From positions 1-23,949 of the IMG/VR virus record IMGVR_UViG_3300008116_000285: a DNA stretch of 23,949 nt; one strand, given 5' to 3'. The DNA comes from a virus. Below the pieces are notes generated by a model. That model did not search any database. It saw only the letters and a program-made list of their open reading frames with translations, and was not told the origin of the DNA. This document shows, in pieces, positions 2,372-20,086 of the stretch (positions within the stretch are counted from its first letter, which is position 1; each line of letters begins with the position of its first letter). A program made the position numbers and the translations under genes.

Positions 2372-2623
2372 ATGTCTGTAAAAAGATTAGTTCCCCTTCA
2401 TGCAGTAGTATTAGATGATAACCCTGTTAATGCACGTATAGGTGATATTTATTACAACAGCATTTCAGAAGAGTTAAGATTTTTTGATGGCTCTAGCTGG
2501 AATCCAGTCGGTGGAGCAATAACTGGAATACTTGACCATATCCATACATATGATGGAGCAATCTTTTCTGTTCAATCTAATGAAGTTCCAGCTTCTGGAG
2601 TTATTGATGGCGGTACTCCATAA
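2372..2623 (+). CDS. Small fibre-associated protein
   Basis: An 83-residue protein consisting largely of one mini-module, RIGDIYYNSISEELRFFDG then a Trp (about residues 22-44), which recurs in four neighbouring fibre proteins. The rest is a short strand-rich tail. It probably decorates or tips a fibre. A very strong AGGGGG Shine-Dalgarno at 2361-2366 precedes the ATG, and the stop overlaps the next start as TAATG. No named family recognised. Confidence 0.6.
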   Translation: MSVKRLVPLHAVVLDDNPVNARIGDIYYNSISEELRFFDGSSWNPVGGAITGILDHIHTYDGAIFSVQSNEVPASGVIDGGTP

Positions 2624-4473
2624 TGCCAGTAATAAGAATAAAAAGAGGAACTACTACCCAGTGGAGTAATTCATTAACACCTTTAACAGGTGGAGAACTT
2701 GGGTATGACATAACATCTAAAGTAATTAAAATAGGTGATGGCACAACTCTTTGGAATGACCTTCTTCCATTAAATAAATTTGAAATTGATGAAATTTCAC
2801 AAGATGCAATTTATAGCGCACTGACAAACTTTGTTTCGGTAGGAAATAATATAACCGTAGAGTATAACGATGTAGATAACTATATGATTTTAGACGTTGG
2901 CCCAAATGTAGTTTTAACGTCTACTCTAGAACAATCTGTTTCAGATAGAATTGCTGAATTAAATACAGACAATTTAAATGAGGGCCTAGCTAATTTATAT
3001 TGGACAGAGTCACGTACAAAAGAAGCAGCAGCAGAGCTATTAGTAAATGCAAATTTAAATAATCTTACAATTACTGGCAATGGATCTGGTTTAACTATTA
3101 CTGCTCAAAACGGGGTGGCTGGCTCAACAACAGACAACCTTCTTGAGGGAACTACAAATCTTTATTTTACAAATCAAAGAGCTTTAGATGCTACAGTATT
3201 AGCATACGATGCTATTGGTGCAGCAACAACAGCACAATCAAATGCAATAGCTTCAGCAAACGAATATACAGACTTAGCAGTATCTGGACTAGGAAACTCT
3301 ATTGGAGATTCTTATGTCCCACAGTCGGACGTTGGCGCATTAGACGGTGTTGCACAACTTGTTGGTGGTTATGTTCCAGATTCTCAAATCTCTCCATCAA
3401 TAGCAAGAGATTCAGAACTATTTAGCGGGTCATATAATGACCTTTCAGACAAGCCAAACATTGCATTGGGCGCAGTTCAATGGACAGCAAACCATACGCT
3501 TCTTCCAGGCGGAGAAAATACAAGATATTTAATTGGAGATATAGTTTATGATGGCGGTAAGATATATGTTGCTAATTATGAAAATGAAAGTATTCCAACA
3601 TCAAGCACACTATATTGGTCAGAAATTGGATCTGGAAAAAGATTAAATATTGACGGCAGAGATATTCCAAATATTACATATAGTCAATTATCTGGAAAAC
3701 CAACCATACCAGATTTAGCTGGTTATGCTACAGAGACATATGTCAATACAGCCGTATCTAATCTTGTAGACACAGCACCAGAAACATTAAATACTCTTAA
3801 TGAATTGGCGGCAGCAATTAATGATGATGCTTCTTATGCATCTACTATTACAACAGCATTAGGCACAAAGGCCCCGTTAGATTCTCCAACATTTACAGGT
3901 ACTGTAAGTGGAATTAGTTCGTCCATGGTAGGCCTTGGAAATGTTGATAATACATCCGATGCAAATAAACCAATTTCTACCGCTACGCAAACAGCACTAA
4001 ACTCTAAATTAGACTCTTCTGGATTTACCTATGCTTCAATTACAATTCCAGTTTATAGCACTATAGCAGAACTGCCTTCTGCCGCATCTAATCATGGCAG
4101 ATGGGCTCATGTTCATGGAGAAGGTGCCATGTTCTTTGCTCACGGTGGCGTATGGTACAGAGCACTATCTGAAACAAATTTATATGTTAACACAAATGCT
4201 CAGTCTAGCTCATATACTTTAGCTACAACTGATTTAGATAAGTTAATTGAAATGTCTGGCGGAGGCACATTAACAATATCAGACTCTGCATCATTCCCAG
4301 TTGGATTTTCATGTGATGTTTTACAAACTGAATCTTCTCAAGTAACTATAGCAGGTAGTGGATTTACTCCAAACGCTACCCCTGGATTAAAATTAAGAAC
4401 ACAATGGAGTTCTGCAACATTAATTAAACGAGCATTAAATTCATGGGTTGTACTCGGCGATTTGAGCGCTTAA
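2623..4473 (+). CDS. Tail fibre with Mtd-like N-terminal attachment domain
   Basis: The first ~50 residues (IKRGTTTQWSN..., GGELGYD, KIGDGTTLWNDL) match the N-terminal domain shared by the Bordetella-phage major tropism determinant and many phage fibres, which attaches the fibre to the tail. Two fibre motifs of the form TDNLNEGLANLYWT follow (about residues 114 and 170). Then comes a segment ending in DVGALDGVAQLVGGYVP (about 236-252) that is nearly repeated in the gene at 6419. A shaft with coiled-coil and SPTFTGTVSG patterns leads to a C-terminal beta-rich cap (about 520-616). Host recognition is the probable role. No variable-repeat or reverse transcriptase is visible, so diversity generation is not supported. 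Confidence 0.8.
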   Translation: MPVIRIKRGTTTQWSNSLTPLTGGELGYDITSKVIKIGDGTTLWNDLLPLNKFEIDEISQDAIYSALTNFVSVGNNITVEYNDVDNYMILDVGPNVVLTSTLEQSVSDRIAELNTDNLNEGLANLYWTESRTKEAAAELLVNANLNNLTITGNGSGLTITAQNGVAGSTTDNLLEGTTNLYFTNQRALDATVLAYDAIGAATTAQSNAIASANEYTDLAVSGLGNSIGDSYVPQSDVGALDGVAQLVGGYVPDSQISPSIARDSELFSGSYNDLSDKPNIALGAVQWTANHTLLPGGENTRYLIGDIVYDGGKIYVANYENESIPTSSTLYWSEIGSGKRLNIDGRDIPNITYSQLSGKPTIPDLAGYATETYVNTAVSNLVDTAPETLNTLNELAAAINDDASYASTITTALGTKAPLDSPTFTGTVSGISSSMVGLGNVDNTSDANKPISTATQTALNSKLDSSGFTYASITIPVYSTIAELPSAASNHGRWAHVHGEGAMFFAHGGVWYRALSETNLYVNTNAQSSSYTLATTDLDKLIEMSGGGTLTISDSASFPVGFSCDVLQTESSQVTIAGSGFTPNATPGLKLRTQWSSATLIKRALNSWVVLGDLSA

Positions 4474-4474
4474 A

Positions 4475-5710
4475 ATGCGTAGAAGATCTGGTAGAGGTGG
4501 AAGTAGAAAATTTAGTGTTCCAAATCTAAATGGGCTTACAAGATCACAAGCAATTGCAGCAATTCAGGCTGCAGGTTTTACATATTCAGAATCTCAACAA
4601 GAAACAAGTACTTCAGGGTTAAATTTATTTATTAGCCAGCAATCTGTTTCTGCAGGAACAGTCATACCACTTGGCTCAACAGTACCTTTTATTTATTATA
4701 ATTATGTAGAGCCAGCTCCAGTAATTACATATGGACCATGTGAGACATACGGCAGCCCAATACAGAATTTAGGCAATAGTACAGGATGTTCTGGCAATTT
4801 TTATCAAGAGCGCACAACATATAGATATAACACAAGAAAAAAGATTTATTCTAATGGCTCATGGGATGGATCTTCATATTCAACAGATGGTTGTGGAACA
4901 ACAGATGTTTTAACTGTTACAAGCAGCAATCAAATAGACGGTTTGTGTGGATACACAGCGCCACCACCCGCATGCACAATTACATCTTATTCGGAATGGT
5001 CTTATGGCAATATTACATGGAGCGGAAACTGTCCATCTGGGACAGAGTCTGGAACAGCAGCATCTAGAAGTAGAACAGATAATTGCGGAAATACTTATAA
5101 TGAAAGCGGAAGCTATTCTGTAACCAGATCTTGTACCCCTCCAGTAACAGTTACTTATGGTCCATGTCAAGCATATGGAGATGCAATAGGAAGTAGTCCA
5201 GTAGGTGGCGGAAGTTATTGTAACGGAACATATACAGTAAATTATCAAACATGGCCATATAACGCTAGAAGAACAATTTTGAATAATGGATCTTGGGATG
5301 GATATTCATATGACTATAGTTGCGGATCTATCAATCAGCAAATTATTATAAGTAATAGCCAGGTAGACGGCTCTTGCGGATATACTACTCCGCCTCCACC
5401 ATCCACAACTTGGTATTGCACTGAATCCTATAATGGTGGTGGTGTTGGAAATTGCGGATATTCAACATCAACATTTAATAATTCAGCATCTGGATCTGGA
5501 TATTCTAGACAATGCTCTACTTCTGGATATCCTGCATGCCAGTCTACAAATCCAACTCCAGTATGTACATCTTATAAATATCAATGCAAGAGTTATGATG
5601 TAACAAATCCAGCAAGCAATAACTACTTCCAATGCTACAATGTGGGAGACTGTACAGCAAACAATAACTCAGATGGATCTAGAACAACGTGTTGTGCAAG
5701 CTATGGGTAA
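4475..5710 (+). CDS. PASTA-domain, cysteine-rich repeat virion/adhesin protein
   Basis: After a basic start, residues 13-77 form a PASTA domain (VPNLNGLTRSQAIAAIQAAG, then a VSAGTVIPLGSTV turn). PASTA domains are known mainly from Gram-positive Ser/Thr kinases and penicillin-binding proteins, where they bind cell-wall muropeptides. The rest is Ser/Thr/Tyr/Gly-rich with 22 cysteines. Two tandem ~78-residue modules start with YGPC (about 86-163 and 228-306) and both carry NGSWDG and end in CGYT-P-P. A different Cys-rich spacer separates them, and another Cys-rich tail ends the protein. There is no signal peptide. The ATG lies one base after the upstream stop, suggesting coupling. A disulfide-stabilised, wall-binding virion adhesin is the best guess. 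Confidence 0.7.
   Translation: MRRRSGRGGSRKFSVPNLNGLTRSQAIAAIQAAGFTYSESQQETSTSGLNLFISQQSVSAGTVIPLGSTVPFIYYNYVEPAPVITYGPCETYGSPIQNLGNSTGCSGNFYQERTTYRYNTRKKIYSNGSWDGSSYSTDGCGTTDVLTVTSSNQIDGLCGYTAPPPACTITSYSEWSYGNITWSGNCPSGTESGTAASRSRTDNCGNTYNESGSYSVTRSCTPPVTVTYGPCQAYGDAIGSSPVGGGSYCNGTYTVNYQTWPYNARRTILNNGSWDGYSYDYSCGSINQQIIISNSQVDGSCGYTTPPPPSTTWYCTESYNGGGVGNCGYSTSTFNNSASGSGYSRQCSTSGYPACQSTNPTPVCTSYKYQCKSYDVTNPASNNYFQCYNVGDCTANNNSDGSRTTCCASYG
4730..5395 (+). repeat. Two diverged Cys-rich tandem modules with spacer
   Basis: The copies lie at about 4730-4963 and 5156-5393. Both encode YGPC at the start, a basic/aromatic middle with YNxR, the shared NGSWDG block, then IDG-C or VDG-C followed by GYT and a proline stretch. 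DNA identity is low outside these anchors, so the duplication is old or maintained by protein selection. Confidence 0.75.
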
Positions 5711-5720
5711 ATTTAAGGTA

Positions 5721-5749
5721 TTTACAAAATTTAACAGAAAAGGTATAAT
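5721..5749 (+). promoter_or_regulatory. Near-consensus sigma70-type promoter, leaderless junction
   Basis: TTTACA (5721-5726) and TATAAT (5744-5749) are separated by exactly 17 bp. The predicted start point, about 7 nt after the -10, falls on or beside the A of the ATG at 5756. No Shine-Dalgarno fits between, so the transcript is probably leaderless. Confidence 0.75.
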
Positions 5750-5755
5750 CTATAG

Positions 5756-6139
5756 ATGATTAATTTACAAGAAGAAGACTGGTTTATTCCAGGAGTAAAA
5801 ATAGCCAAAGTTGCGGCAGGAGAATCAGCAAAACAAGTGGCAGTCATTATAGATGGCCAGATAGCATTCTTTATTGGTGTAAAAGAAGAAATTGCTAATA
5901 AGCTATTAAACGCAACAAGTTTTTTAGAGTGTGAATCTGTAAATGGACTGTTCTGCACATCATTTGTGATTGACACAACAGTTGATCAAATTTTATCTAA
6001 CGAAATGACGCAGGCTGCATTACTTTCAAGTCCAGAATTTGTTTTAGTTGACAAGGATGTTCAAAGGCATGCTGAATTAGCAGAGGCTGGTTGGCTATAT
6101 CAAGATGGTCAATTTATAGTTCCAGGAGTATACGAATGA
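5756..6139 (+). CDS. Unrecognised 127-residue phage protein
   Basis: I do not recognise this protein. It looks like a compact alpha/beta fold: a strand-rich first half (VAVIIDGQIAFFIGV at about residues 28-42), a helical middle and a short C-terminal motif around GWLYQDGQFIVPG (about 111-123). It has no signal peptide, membrane segment or obvious catalytic motif. It is the first gene after a strong promoter whose predicted start coincides with its ATG, and it overlaps the zinc-ribbon gene downstream by ATGA, so the two are co-translated. Because they sit inside the fibre block with their own promoter, they may be accessory rather than structural. Confidence 0.6.
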   Translation: MINLQEEDWFIPGVKIAKVAAGESAKQVAVIIDGQIAFFIGVKEEIANKLLNATSFLECESVNGLFCTSFVIDTTVDQILSNEMTQAALLSSPEFVLVDKDVQRHAELAEAGWLYQDGQFIVPGVYE

Positions 6140-6372
6140 CAGAAAAAAGTAAGTGGCAGCAGTATAAGGAAAAACTTGGAGATACCAGGCCTTGGGATAT
6201 GTTAAATCCAAATACTGAATATGCTACAGAGGAAGAGGGGGAAAGGAGATACGACATTTGTAAGGGCTGCCCAGAGCTCATAGATTTAACAAAACAATGT
6301 AAGCAGTGCGGATGCTTTATGGTTATGAAAACCAAACTACAACACGCTACCTGCCCGCTAGGAAAATGGTAA
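6136..6372 (+). CDS. Small zinc-ribbon protein
   Basis: Starting at ATG 6136 (ATGA overlap with the upstream stop) gives 78 residues; a longer upstream start at 6091 lies deep inside the preceding gene and is rejected. Six cysteines are placed as CxxC (C42, C45), CxxCxC (C55, C58, C60) and C73, a treble or zinc-ribbon pattern. The motif RPWDMLNPNTEYA (about residues 19-31) precedes it and the protein ends in CPLGKW. Small proteins of this pattern recur in tailed phages, but their role is not known to me. Metal binding is confident by pattern. Function, whether regulation or virion stability, is open. Confidence 0.7.
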   Translation: MTEKSKWQQYKEKLGDTRPWDMLNPNTEYATEEEGERRYDICKGCPELIDLTKQCKQCGCFMVMKTKLQHATCPLGKW

Positions 6373-15551: not shown

Positions 15552-16253
15552 ATGATAAATGTATACTGGTCAAAATATAACATGTTTACCGAAAACATGA
15601 ATTATATGATGGATATTTCTATAAGCCCAGTATTGTCTTCTTTACATAAAAAAATAGGAAATCCTGTACAGGATGATGTAAATTGGCTAGGCTGCCCAGC
15701 TGTTACAAATTTATTAAAGAATACATTTGCATTTACTAACCCTATGACCCTAGATATAAAATTAAATAGCAATAAAACTATAGATTGGTTAGATAATAAT
15801 CTAGAAGATTATATATCTGTAAGAGAGTATTCAGATAAAAATGTCATACTTGATTATTTGGTTCCATTATCATTATTTTCAGAAAATGATATAAATATAA
15901 CATTAAGTCAACCATTTCTATCAAATAAAAATTTAAATAATGCTCATTTAATACCAGGACAATTTAATATTTCAAATTGGTTTAGACCATTAATCCCATC
16001 ATACTCTATATACGATAATGGAAGATTTACCTTGGATAAGGGGGACGACCTATTCTATGTAAAGTTTGACACAGATAAAAAAATTAATTTTATAGAATTT
16101 TATTTTACTGATACACTAAAAGATATTGTAAAAAGTTCATTAGAAATAAAAAGGTATAAAAAGAATACTTCTCTCCAAGATCTTTATGAAAAATTTAATT
16201 CACAACGAATTAATAAAATAGCTATAAAGGAAATTAAAAAGGCAATAATATGA
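15552..16253 (+). CDS. Halogenase-partner protein A (233 aa, unknown function)
   Basis: First gene of the cassette. I recognise the overall pattern as a phage-typical protein of unknown function but cannot name it. Landmarks are GNPVQDDVNWLGCPAV (residues 36-51), a strand NTFAFTNPM (about 57-65), a PLSLFSE segment (about 105-111), GQFNISNWFRP (136-146) and KGDDLFYVKFDTD (163-175), then a basic helical tail. The order of these landmarks resembles partner protein B downstream, suggesting distant homology. Predicted strands alternate as in double-stranded beta-helix or sandwich proteins. It has no signal peptide. The gene lacks a Shine-Dalgarno, matching a leaderless start, and overlaps halogenase 1 as ATGA. 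It may supply or bind the halogenase substrate; that is inference. Confidence 0.65.
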   Translation: MINVYWSKYNMFTENMNYMMDISISPVLSSLHKKIGNPVQDDVNWLGCPAVTNLLKNTFAFTNPMTLDIKLNSNKTIDWLDNNLEDYISVREYSDKNVILDYLVPLSLFSENDINITLSQPFLSNKNLNNAHLIPGQFNISNWFRPLIPSYSIYDNGRFTLDKGDDLFYVKFDTDKKINFIEFYFTDTLKDIVKSSLEIKRYKKNTSLQDLYEKFNSQRINKIAIKEIKKAII

Positions 16254-17878
16254 ATTTAATAGTTAATAAAGTTGTAGTTGTTGGTGGAGGTAGCGCAGGA
16301 TGGATGGCTGCTGCAACAATTAAGTCTGTATTTCCTGAAAAAGAAGTTATTGTAATTGAAAGTCCAGATACTCCAACAGTAGGTGTCGGCGAGAGCACCC
16401 TTGGCTTTATGAATGACTGGCTTAGGTTAATTGGACTGCCTAAAGAAAAATTTATGGCGGAATGCGATGCAATATATAAATTAAGTATTAAATTTAGAGA
16501 TTTTTATGAAAAGGGAAGTGGATCATTTCATTACCCATTTACTAGACCAATTGTAGATTCAATAAAGGGTATGGGAGAAACAGAAGACTGGTATGTAAAA
16601 AAGATGTTTAATCCAGAAACTCCTGTAGAAGACTATACAGATACATTCTACCCAGTCTCACACCTACTGCCTGAAAATAAATTTACTAATATTTTTAAAG
16701 ATAAAGACGGAACCGTATTATTTGATTCCAGTGTTGGATCGGCGTTACATTTTGATGCAAGCATGTTTGGAGCATGGTTAAGAGAAAACTTCTGTTTACC
16801 AAAAGGTGTCATCCTTAAAACAAATACAGTAAAAGATTGGTCATTGTCCGATTCAGGTATTGACTATCTTTTATTAGATAGTGGTGAAAAGGTATATTCA
16901 GACCTTTTCATAGATTGTACTGGCTTTCACTCTATATTAATTGGAAAAGCTTTACAGGAAGAGTGGATTGATTATTCTGATAAAATTCCAAACAATAGAG
17001 CATGGGCTACGCAAATACCTTATATTGATAAAAATAAAGAGATGGAGCCATATACTACATGTACAGCTATAGAAAATGGTTGGGTGTGGAATATTCCTTC
17101 ATGGAAGAGAATAGGTACTGGATATGTGTATAGTGATAAGTTTATTTCGCCAGAAGATGCCTTAAATCAATTTAAAAATTATTTAAAAACAGACTATGTG
17201 AGTGCATATAATCCAGATAGAGACGTAGATTCTATGAGCTTTAAAGATGTTAAATTTAAAATTGGAATTCATAAAAGAACATGGGTTAAAAATGTAGTAG
17301 CAATAGGATTAGCCGCTGGCTTCATTGAACCGCTAGAAAGTAATGGACTTTTTACAGTTCATAAGTTCTTGGAATATTTGTGTGCCACTTTAGAGCGAAA
17401 AAAGGTTTCACAGTGGGACAGAGATGCATACAACAATGTAACATTTGAGCAGTTTAATTTATTTGCAGATTTTGTAACACTACACTATGCTCTTTCTTTA
17501 AGGGATGATACAGAGTATTGGAAAAATGCTACTGGAAAAACCTATTACCCAGAATTAATAAATAGTGAGTATACCATAGCATCCACGCCGCTAGATCTAG
17601 TAGCAAGAAAATTTTATATAAATAAGTGGGGATCTAGAAATGAATACGGAGGTCCAGCATCGGGACTAAGTTGTGTTGCAACTGGATTAAATTATCCTAT
17701 TATTTCTGCAACAGAAGTTTATACTAATCAGGCTTCTCTAGGAATTGATGTACAAGGAAGAATAAACTATCTAGATCAAATTTGGTCTGAAAATAAAAAT
17801 AAATGGTCAGAGCTTTCTAAAGAGCTTCCTACAGTATATGAGCACTTATCAAATACTTTATATAAGGATAAGATATGA
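16250..17878 (+). CDS. FAD-dependent tryptophan-halogenase-like enzyme 1
   Basis: 542 residues, near the usual size of PrnA/RebH-type halogenases. Motifs: FAD-binding GGGSAGW (12-18); VGVGEST (44-50); a lysine in AIYKLSIKF (K77) aligned with catalytic Lys79 of PrnA; HFDA (167-170); IDCTGF (221-226); the halogenase motif GWVWNIP (277-283); and EPLES with E363 and S364 aligned with PrnA Glu346 and Ser347. These enzymes use reduced flavin, oxygen and halide to make HOCl or HOBr, which reaches the substrate indole through the lysine. No flavin reductase gene is seen, so host reductase is presumably used. Insertions relative to PrnA, near 85-125 and 440-510, leave the substrate open. AAGG at 16239-16242 supports the start. 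Confidence 0.88.
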   Translation: MNLIVNKVVVVGGGSAGWMAAATIKSVFPEKEVIVIESPDTPTVGVGESTLGFMNDWLRLIGLPKEKFMAECDAIYKLSIKFRDFYEKGSGSFHYPFTRPIVDSIKGMGETEDWYVKKMFNPETPVEDYTDTFYPVSHLLPENKFTNIFKDKDGTVLFDSSVGSALHFDASMFGAWLRENFCLPKGVILKTNTVKDWSLSDSGIDYLLLDSGEKVYSDLFIDCTGFHSILIGKALQEEWIDYSDKIPNNRAWATQIPYIDKNKEMEPYTTCTAIENGWVWNIPSWKRIGTGYVYSDKFISPEDALNQFKNYLKTDYVSAYNPDRDVDSMSFKDVKFKIGIHKRTWVKNVVAIGLAAGFIEPLESNGLFTVHKFLEYLCATLERKKVSQWDRDAYNNVTFEQFNLFADFVTLHYALSLRDDTEYWKNATGKTYYPELINSEYTIASTPLDLVARKFYINKWGSRNEYGGPASGLSCVATGLNYPIISATEVYTNQASLGIDVQGRINYLDQIWSENKNKWSELSKELPTVYEHLSNTLYKDKI

Positions 17879-18561
17879 GTAAAAAAATAAAATTTTCAAT
17901 TCAAGGAAATGACCTAATAGATATTCCAAATGCTGCTAAAAAGCATATACCAGAATGGTATAGAGATGCTGAAAGGTTTGTAGGCGGAAATATGAAAATA
18001 GGAAATGGCACAAGTAATCATGGGCTAAAGCTATGTATGCCATTTTTAGACGCAATGACTTCTGGGTACACTGCCTTTTTATGGACAGATATTATTGTAG
18101 AGCAGACGGAACTTGGGCCAAAGCTACAGTGGAGACTTGGACCAGATCCAATTGAAAAAAGACCTAGAATAAATAAAACATTGCCCACACCAGCAGGTCA
18201 TGATGAAGATCATTACGCATGGAAGTCATTGTTTAATATCCAGACCCCAAAGGGTTATAGTATTTTAATATCTCACCCACACAATAGGTTTGATCTTCCA
18301 TTTACTACACTTTCTGGTATTGTTGACTCTGACATGACAATGGCAAGAGGCAATCTGCCATTCTTTTTAAAATCAGGCTTTGAGGGCATTATCCCAGTAG
18401 GTACTCCCATATATCAAGTTATGCCATTTAAAAGAGAAAACTGGCAATCTGAACATGATAAATCAATAACAGACATAGCAATTAAAAATGAATTCGATAC
18501 AACAAGAAGAGCATTTGGATGGTATAAAAACTTTAAATGGAATAGGAAGTCTTATGAGTAA
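17875..18561 (+). CDS. Halogenase-partner protein B (228 aa, unknown function)
   Basis: A member of a phage and bacterial family of unknown function. Landmarks: IPEWYR (25-30), LCMPFLDAMTSGY (53-65), PKGYSILISHPHNRFDLPF (125-143), LSGIVDSD (146-153) and EGIIPVGTPIYQVMPFKR (170-187). The late strands look like those of DUF6065-type proteins that I recall beside halogenases, but this is from memory. A beta-barrel or cupin-like fold is likely. HPH (134-136) might bind metal. It sits between the two halogenases, overlaps the first as ATGA and the second by 8 bases, and has AAGGA at 17864-17868. A role in substrate binding or capping is inference. Confidence 0.7.
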   Translation: MSKKIKFSIQGNDLIDIPNAAKKHIPEWYRDAERFVGGNMKIGNGTSNHGLKLCMPFLDAMTSGYTAFLWTDIIVEQTELGPKLQWRLGPDPIEKRPRINKTLPTPAGHDEDHYAWKSLFNIQTPKGYSILISHPHNRFDLPFTTLSGIVDSDMTMARGNLPFFLKSGFEGIIPVGTPIYQVMPFKRENWQSEHDKSITDIAIKNEFDTTRRAFGWYKNFKWNRKSYE

Positions 18562-20086
18562 TATAGTTATTATTGGCGGAGGAACCGCTGGATGGATTAC
18601 CGCTTTATATGCAAAACAAATTTACCCAGATTCTAAGGTAACTGTTATTGCAAGCGAAGAGATAGGAGTACTGGGAGCTGGAGAAAGCACCACCCCAATG
18701 TTCATAGATTTCCTTGATATTATAAAAATTCCATTTTATGAATTAATTCGTAACTGCGAAGCAACCCTTAAAGTTTCAGCAAAATTTAGCAACTGGAATA
18801 AAGATGGCGGATACTATTACAACTCATTTGCAGCAGATGAAGACCTAGCCATATCAACACTAAACTCTTTTATAGATCCAGTAACTCAGTATAACTCCAG
18901 AGCAATAATTTACTCTATAGCAAAGAACAATAAACAGCACCAGTTTGACTTTAATTCAAATTTAGCAGAAAATAATAAATTTCCTTTTTCAATAAATTCT
19001 GATAGGCTGGCACACTTTTCTTTAAATTTTGATGCCAGGTTGGTCGCAGAATATTTTAAAAAAATAGCTATAGAAGAGCGTGGTATATTTTATATTGATG
19101 ACGAAATAATATCATTTGAAGAAAATTCTAATAAAGAAATCGTTAAAATAAATTGCAAAAGCAATGCCGTTCATTCAGATTTTGTATTTGATTGCAGCGG
19201 ATTTAAAAGACTATTAATTGGTAAATACTATAATTCAGAATGGAAAAGTTACTCAGAGCATTTACCAGCAGATAAAGCTTTTCCATTTTTTCTATCTCAC
19301 GAGCAGATGGGAAAGGGAGTTACTTCACATATTAACGCTGTTGCAATGAAGTATGGGTGGATGTGGCAGATTCCAATACAAAGCAGATATGGTTGTGGAT
19401 ATGTGTTTGATTCTTCTTATATAACATTAGAGGAAGCAAAAAAAGAAGTCGAAGAGTATTTTGGATTTGAAGTTCAGCCTCCAAGGCAGGGATTATTTTT
19501 TGAATTTAATCCAGGGTCATTTAAAAATGTTTGGATTAAAAACTGCATCGCTGTTGGGTTATCTTCAGCTTTCATTGAACCGCTAGAAGCAACTTCTATC
19601 TTGTCAAGCCTTCAAAGTTTAAAAAGACTTCCAGGAAATATAGAAGATCTGCTTAAGGCCACAGAACCAGACAAAAATAATTTTAATGCTAAATTTAGGT
19701 CAGATCAAGAAGAAATATTAAATTTTATCTACCTTCATTATGTAACCAATAGGGATGACACAGAGTTTTGGAAAAATTTTACAATCAATAACAAAATGCC
19801 AGACTTCACAAAACAAATATTGTCTAAATCTAAGAATAATATTTTAGAGTATAAAGATTTTGAAGGCACTAATATTTTTGCCTTAGAAAACTACTTGTTT
19901 GTAATGCAGGGAAATGGTATACTTAATTTAGAGCCCTATATAAAAGAGTTCAATAATACTTATTCCGAAGAAGAGAACAAGAATTATGAGATTTTTAAAA
20001 TAAAGCAAAACTTAACATTACAAACTTCTGCTAATTGGCAACAGGTTTTAAAAATGATCGAGGATAGACATGATGCAGTTAAATGA
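18554..20086 (+). CDS. FAD-dependent tryptophan-halogenase-like enzyme 2
   Basis: ATG 18554 is chosen because it gives the canonical N-terminus MSNIVIIGGGTAGW; the start at 18488 would add 22 residues inside partner B. The 510 residues show FAD-binding GGGTAGW (8-14), GAGESTTP (41-48), K73 (TLKVSAKF) aligned with PrnA Lys79, NFDARL (158-163), FDCSGF (212-217), GWMWQIP (268-274) and EPLEAT, with E345 as the catalytic glutamate. The residue after it is Ala346 where halogenase 1 and PrnA have Ser. Overall identity with halogenase 1 is low outside motifs, so the duplication is old or the two were acquired separately. AGGAAG at 18544-18549 is a close Shine-Dalgarno. Likely active, with a different substrate. 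Confidence 0.85.
   Translation: MSNIVIIGGGTAGWITALYAKQIYPDSKVTVIASEEIGVLGAGESTTPMFIDFLDIIKIPFYELIRNCEATLKVSAKFSNWNKDGGYYYNSFAADEDLAISTLNSFIDPVTQYNSRAIIYSIAKNNKQHQFDFNSNLAENNKFPFSINSDRLAHFSLNFDARLVAEYFKKIAIEERGIFYIDDEIISFEENSNKEIVKINCKSNAVHSDFVFDCSGFKRLLIGKYYNSEWKSYSEHLPADKAFPFFLSHEQMGKGVTSHINAVAMKYGWMWQIPIQSRYGCGYVFDSSYITLEEAKKEVEEYFGFEVQPPRQGLFFEFNPGSFKNVWIKNCIAVGLSSAFIEPLEATSILSSLQSLKRLPGNIEDLLKATEPDKNNFNAKFRSDQEEILNFIYLHYVTNRDDTEFWKNFTINNKMPDFTKQILSKSKNNILEYKDFEGTNIFALENYLFVMQGNGILNLEPYIKEFNNTYSEEENKNYEIFKIKQNLTLQTSANWQQVLKMIEDRHDAVK

Follow-up and report, generated by a model that had tools for sequence, protein, structure and literature searches.

A tail-fibre gene in the window (the whole stretch of 23,949 nucleotides of viral DNA that we analyzed) is followed by an intact reading frame for a 411-aa protein and then by a small gene for a 127-aa protein (Table 1). 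The stop codon of the fibre gene, TAA, is separated by a single base from the ATG of the 411-aa protein, which consists, in order, of a basic peptide, a PASTA domain, a first YGPC module (A), a middle module, a second YGPC module (B) and a C-terminal tail. A sequence-only reading of the same DNA had described a 22-cysteine protein, and the translation indeed contains exactly 22 cysteines (4 + 4 + 4 + 10 from module A to the tail), all of them within residues 89-407, with residues 1-83 free of cysteine. That reading, however, had set the start at 4730, where the codons of the first YGPC module begin; the gene starts 255 bases upstream, at 4475. The modules and cysteines of the anatomy it proposed were thus correct, while the N-terminal PASTA domain had been overlooked. 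It had also noted the lack of a signal peptide, and we likewise found none apparent by eye, since the protein begins MRRRSGRGGSRK and a hydrophobic stretch is absent. Cysteine accounts for 5.35% of the 411-aa protein compared with 0-1.6% for the remaining genes listed for the window, the one exception being a 78-aa DUF6171-type protein (6136-6372) with 7.7%. The dN/dS of the gene against six relatives was roughly 0.1-0.35, and this purifying selection indicates that the gene is real. All 22 cysteines are retained in the related proteins at loci L001, L002 and L010.

Table 1. Coordinates of the features at the fibre locus (window numbering; residues refer to the 411-aa protein).
Feature	Position	Strand	Basis
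Tail-fibre gene, Mtd_N domain	2623..4473	+	PF18454 E=6.5e-11; phrog_8780 minor tail protein
Fibre C-terminal domain, putative docking site	4186-4470	+	shared C-end
PASTA + Cys-rich protein, probable tail-fibre tip, 411 aa, 22 Cys	4475..5710	+	intact ORF; dN/dS vs relatives
Basic N-terminal peptide MRRRSGRGGSRKFS, residues 1-14, putative docking peptide	4475..4516	+	shared basic start
PASTA domain, residues 15-70	4517..4684	+	PF03793 E=6.1e-8; fold match
YGPC module A, residues 86-160, 4 Cys	4730..4954	+	multiple alignments; module model pLDDT 92
Middle 4-Cys module, residues 167-220, pattern C..W..C..R.R..C..C	4973..5134	+	conserved in L002, L010, L018
YGPC module B, residues 228-303, 4 Cys	5156..5383	+	46% identity with module A
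C-terminal tail, residues 313-411, 10 Cys	5411..5707	+	strong conservation in L002, L007, L008, L010
127-aa protein, probably a chaperone or cognate partner for YGPC tips	5756..6139	+	co-occurrence

The PASTA assignment is supported by both score and structure. PF03793 matched at 33 bits against a gathering cut-off of 23.2 and was the only Pfam hit at E<=1, and Foldseek aligned residues 15-70 with the PASTA domains of PknB, PrkC and PBPs at a probability of 1.00. In contrast to the PASTA kinases and PBPs, the domain is present here as a single copy, in a phage protein and with a basic tail.

The two diverged YGPC...CGY modules reported from the sequence alone are real repeats, being 46% identical and aligning with a score of 183, when the best of 1000 shuffles scored 65. 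A module model built from 27 sequences (pLDDT 92) contains four strands, the order of which makes a pairing of the first cysteine with the fourth and of the second with the third plausible. A search of the PDB and BFVD with this fold yielded no structural match at E<=0.001, but since small elongated beta folds are difficult targets for Foldseek, the novelty of the fold is only suggested. The module likewise had no match in Pfam, PHROGs, NCBIfam, PDB, INPHARED or BFVD, and the claim that it belongs to no known phage family withstands these searches. The complete 411-aa protein matched nothing in PHROGs or by tblastn in INPHARED (E<=0.01), where its N-terminal end alone also found nothing (E<=1), and sequence and profile searches of the PDB returned nothing for the cysteine-rich part. 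No description of the family was found in the openly licensed literature. Sampled cellular genomes, scanned with the YGPC module and with the full alignment, contained no relatives; these scans, like those of IMG/VR, relied on short peptide patterns and would overlook relatives that have diverged strongly. Relatives of the module, which the sequence-only reading had missed, are present in about 18 IMG/VR contigs, all from uncultured phages.

Close relatives keep the PASTA start, carry one to four YGPC modules and mostly have the same tail. YGPC modules also terminate giant fibre-like proteins of about 700-1030 aa (L011, L019, L021, L036-L039), where they are accompanied by related or different cysteine tails; the 10-Cys tail itself forms the C-terminal end of the L011 and L036 proteins, and fn3 in L021 is supported by Pfam. 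At L032, YGPC modules lie near the end of the protein and an internal PASTA-like stretch scores just under the cut-off. The middle module resembles thrombospondin type 1 repeats by eye in its W, R.R and cysteine spacing, but we rejected this assignment because there was no TSP_1 (PF00090) match at E<=1. The fold of the tail was not predicted (pLDDT below 40), and the full-length model was poor past residue 300.

We analyzed what follows the fibre C-terminal domain in other phages. This domain is present in 199 INPHARED records, 193 of which are Gordonia phages. Two Gordonia phages were examined, and in each the fibre gene is overlapped by a following gene for a basic-start protein of about 200 aa (Baddon gp40 and Phinally gp39, the latter annotated as a minor tail protein); neither protein has a PASTA domain, cysteine modules or a Pfam match. 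As a bait in IMG/VR, the fibre C-terminal domain retrieved 236 loci. In the 80 of these that were analyzed, the next gene usually encodes a PASTA or FN3 protein with a basic start and a variable C-terminal end, which may be a repetitive stalk with a small cysteine knob, YGPC modules, a Gly-rich region or a Hint-like domain; the pattern was unchanged at 44 loci retrieved with the PASTA start as a second bait. The basic start is common to tips behind the same fibre end and is also seen in the two proteins encoded at this position in Gordonia phages. Similarity of the fibre C-terminal end correlated with that of the tip N-terminal end at r=0.91 and with that of the tip C-terminal end at 0.51 (n=46), and for PASTA tips alone the values were 0.88 and 0.59. 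Shared phage ancestry feeds both correlations and could account for part of the co-variation, and it is the contrast between them that is informative. Some departures from the usual arrangement were seen: at L059 and L069 the gene after the fibre end resembles, by reading only, a 2OG-Fe oxygenase and not a tip, and at L018 a Gly-rich tip (PF21722, just under the cut-off) and then a PASTA-YGPC tip come after the fibre gene, the same tandem order of two tip genes as at L042:2667-3758. The tips at L134 and L135 are near-identical, with a different copy number of TPPIIAV stalk units.

We consider it likely that the 411-aa protein forms the tip of the tail fibre whose gene lies upstream, with its PASTA end docking and its cysteine modules facing the host. 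The basic peptide and the PASTA domain would dock on the C-terminal domain of the fibre, and the YGPC modules, the middle module and the 10-Cys tail would point outward and touch the host surface. The adhesin idea of the sequence-only reading gains support in this way from context, as a tail-fibre gene immediately precedes this one, which is itself a member of a family of swappable tip genes. A signal peptide would not be needed, since the tips would be assembled inside the cell and exit at lysis. Neither the absence of an apparent signal peptide nor the coupling to the fibre gene is expected of a stand-alone effector that is secreted, or released by lysis, and works outside the virion. YGPC modules are moreover also the C-terminal ends of giant fibre-like proteins, and we regard such an effector as very improbable, even though the 411-aa protein has no PHROG match.

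Since the best-known role of PASTA domains is to bind the cell wall, the PASTA domain might be the host-binding part and not the dock. It would then anchor the virion to the cell wall through muropeptide binding, as in PknB and PBPs, and the cysteine modules would serve as a rigid spacer or decoration; the protein would still be virion-associated, with the roles of its two ends reversed. Consistent with this, the PASTA match is genuine and the host may be an actinobacterium, given WhiB in four related contigs. It is, however, the basic peptide and PASTA domain that stay constant and co-vary with the fibre end, FN3 takes the place of PASTA behind a diverged class of fibre ends, and the cysteine part is the one that is swapped, all of which make the reversed arrangement unlikely.

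Docking through the N-terminal end would have a parallel in gp38. In T2-type phages, a mismatch between fibre and tip was cured by exchanging the N-terminal 113 residues of gp38 (PMC12892980); the requirement that this end match the fibre resembles the co-variation between fibre C-terminal and tip N-terminal ends. The protein described here would, like gp38 (T2/S16/PP01-type), be a separate fibre-topping protein with a conserved, fibre-matched N-terminal end and a variable outer part, and its gene, like that of gp38, comes immediately after the fibre gene. Unlike gp38, the protein has PASTA and cysteine modules, lacks the glycine-rich/PGII architecture and shows no sequence match, and it is best read as gp38-like by logic and not by descent.

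The number of cysteines, counted outside Hint-like regions with boundaries defined by hand-written motifs, was even in 33/33 distinct tips with at least two cysteines (32/33 in an earlier automatic pass) and in 16/16 similarity families, whereas control ORFs from the same loci had 87 even and 56 odd counts. The sequence-only reading had offered disulfide-stabilised folding outside the cell or metal binding; the even parity indirectly supports the first of these. Sets of four cysteines that bind zinc or iron, in a cytoplasmic or a virion protein, would likewise give even counts, and the neighbour at 6136-6372 is a cysteine protein of the DUF6171 type. Nevertheless, the cysteines of the YGPC module are spaced by about 16, 35 and 18 residues and form no CxxC pairs, the even counts are kept by tip C-terminal ends that are unrelated in sequence, and cysteine is nearly absent from the products of the window's other fibre genes, which leaves metal binding with little probability. 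For disulfide-stabilised tips, the cysteines would be reduced in the host and the disulfides would close after lysis, outside the reducing cytoplasm. Help with oxidative folding encoded by the phage is unsupported, because thioredoxin was found in 3/19 contigs and in none of the closest ones. If the tip reading is right, it also raises the testable question of how proteins with 4-30 cysteines come to fold when they are produced in a reducing cytoplasm and freed by lysis.

We also investigated the 127-aa protein encoded next to the 411-aa protein. Its homologues adjoin 7/7 YGPC tips and 0/32 other tips in a comparison of 39 loci, from which L042 was excluded because it shares a contig with L130 and has a YGPC tip after a Gly-rich tip. 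The gene also accompanies the giant YGPC fibres at L011, L021 and L036-L039, and no homologue was detected beside L019, where a different small ORF is present, or beside L032. Many other tips carry other small genes at this position, some of which are distant relatives by HMM. The persistence of the link across different scaffolds suggests that the 127-aa protein acts on the YGPC modules; it would be a cognate folding or assembly partner and may shield or fold the cysteine part. There was no Pfam or NCBIfam match, including to tail fibre assembly chaperones (Tfa), for which its position and its GW.Y.dG.F C-terminal end are only suggestive. Between the window and L001, identity is 94-100% for most of the region at about 4000-6160, apart from a gap (about 3880-3999) and isolated 60-base steps of 83% and 90%, compared to 73-80% past 6160 (sliding scan) and about 84% in the upstream genes. 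This block of high identity within diverged flanks indicates that the fibre end, the tip and the 127-aa gene travelled as a unit in a recent exchange.

There is in our view an even chance that these proteins belong to a large family of interchangeable tips, not described before, from uncultured phages that probably infect actinobacteria, in which a PASTA or FN3 dock carries disulfide-knob, new all-beta YGPC or Hint-like payloads, often with a partner gene of its own. If the tip reading is right, the likely receptor-binding gene has been identified for a group of uncultured phages, it can be found by the rule that it is the next gene after the conserved fibre C-terminal end, and the family constitutes a natural plug-in system of cysteine-rich tips with matching partner genes. 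WhiB, an actinobacterial marker for host prediction (PMC6802176), was above the cut-off in four contigs with the tip or fibre system, and the host of the window phage may accordingly be an actinobacterium. A cyanobacterial host is not favoured, since photosystem reaction-centre genes (PF00124) were found in 0/16 related contigs.

Several tips with a PASTA start end in Hint-like (hedgehog/intein-type) domains (L131:6001-6948, L148:4454-5455, L155-L157, L161 and L162), and degenerate forms are present at L139 and L144-L147. Some keep an intact-looking C...HN pattern, with Pfam scores that are under the cut-offs (best E=4e-6, L148). The Hint-like C-terminal end at L139:6790-7233 has distant tblastn matches to Erwinia and Dickeya phage proteins annotated as virion structural or tail proteins. 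Self-processing or self-attachment of such tips upon meeting the host would be new. Downstream of the tail genes, the window contains a tryptophan-halogenase-family gene at 16250-17878 (PF04820, E=3e-97) and, by reading, a second halogenase-like gene at 18488-20086. The 78-aa DUF6171-type protein, which has six cysteines, is encoded behind most tip loci examined and also occurs in unrelated phages of Synechococcus, Stenotrophomonas and Rhizobium.
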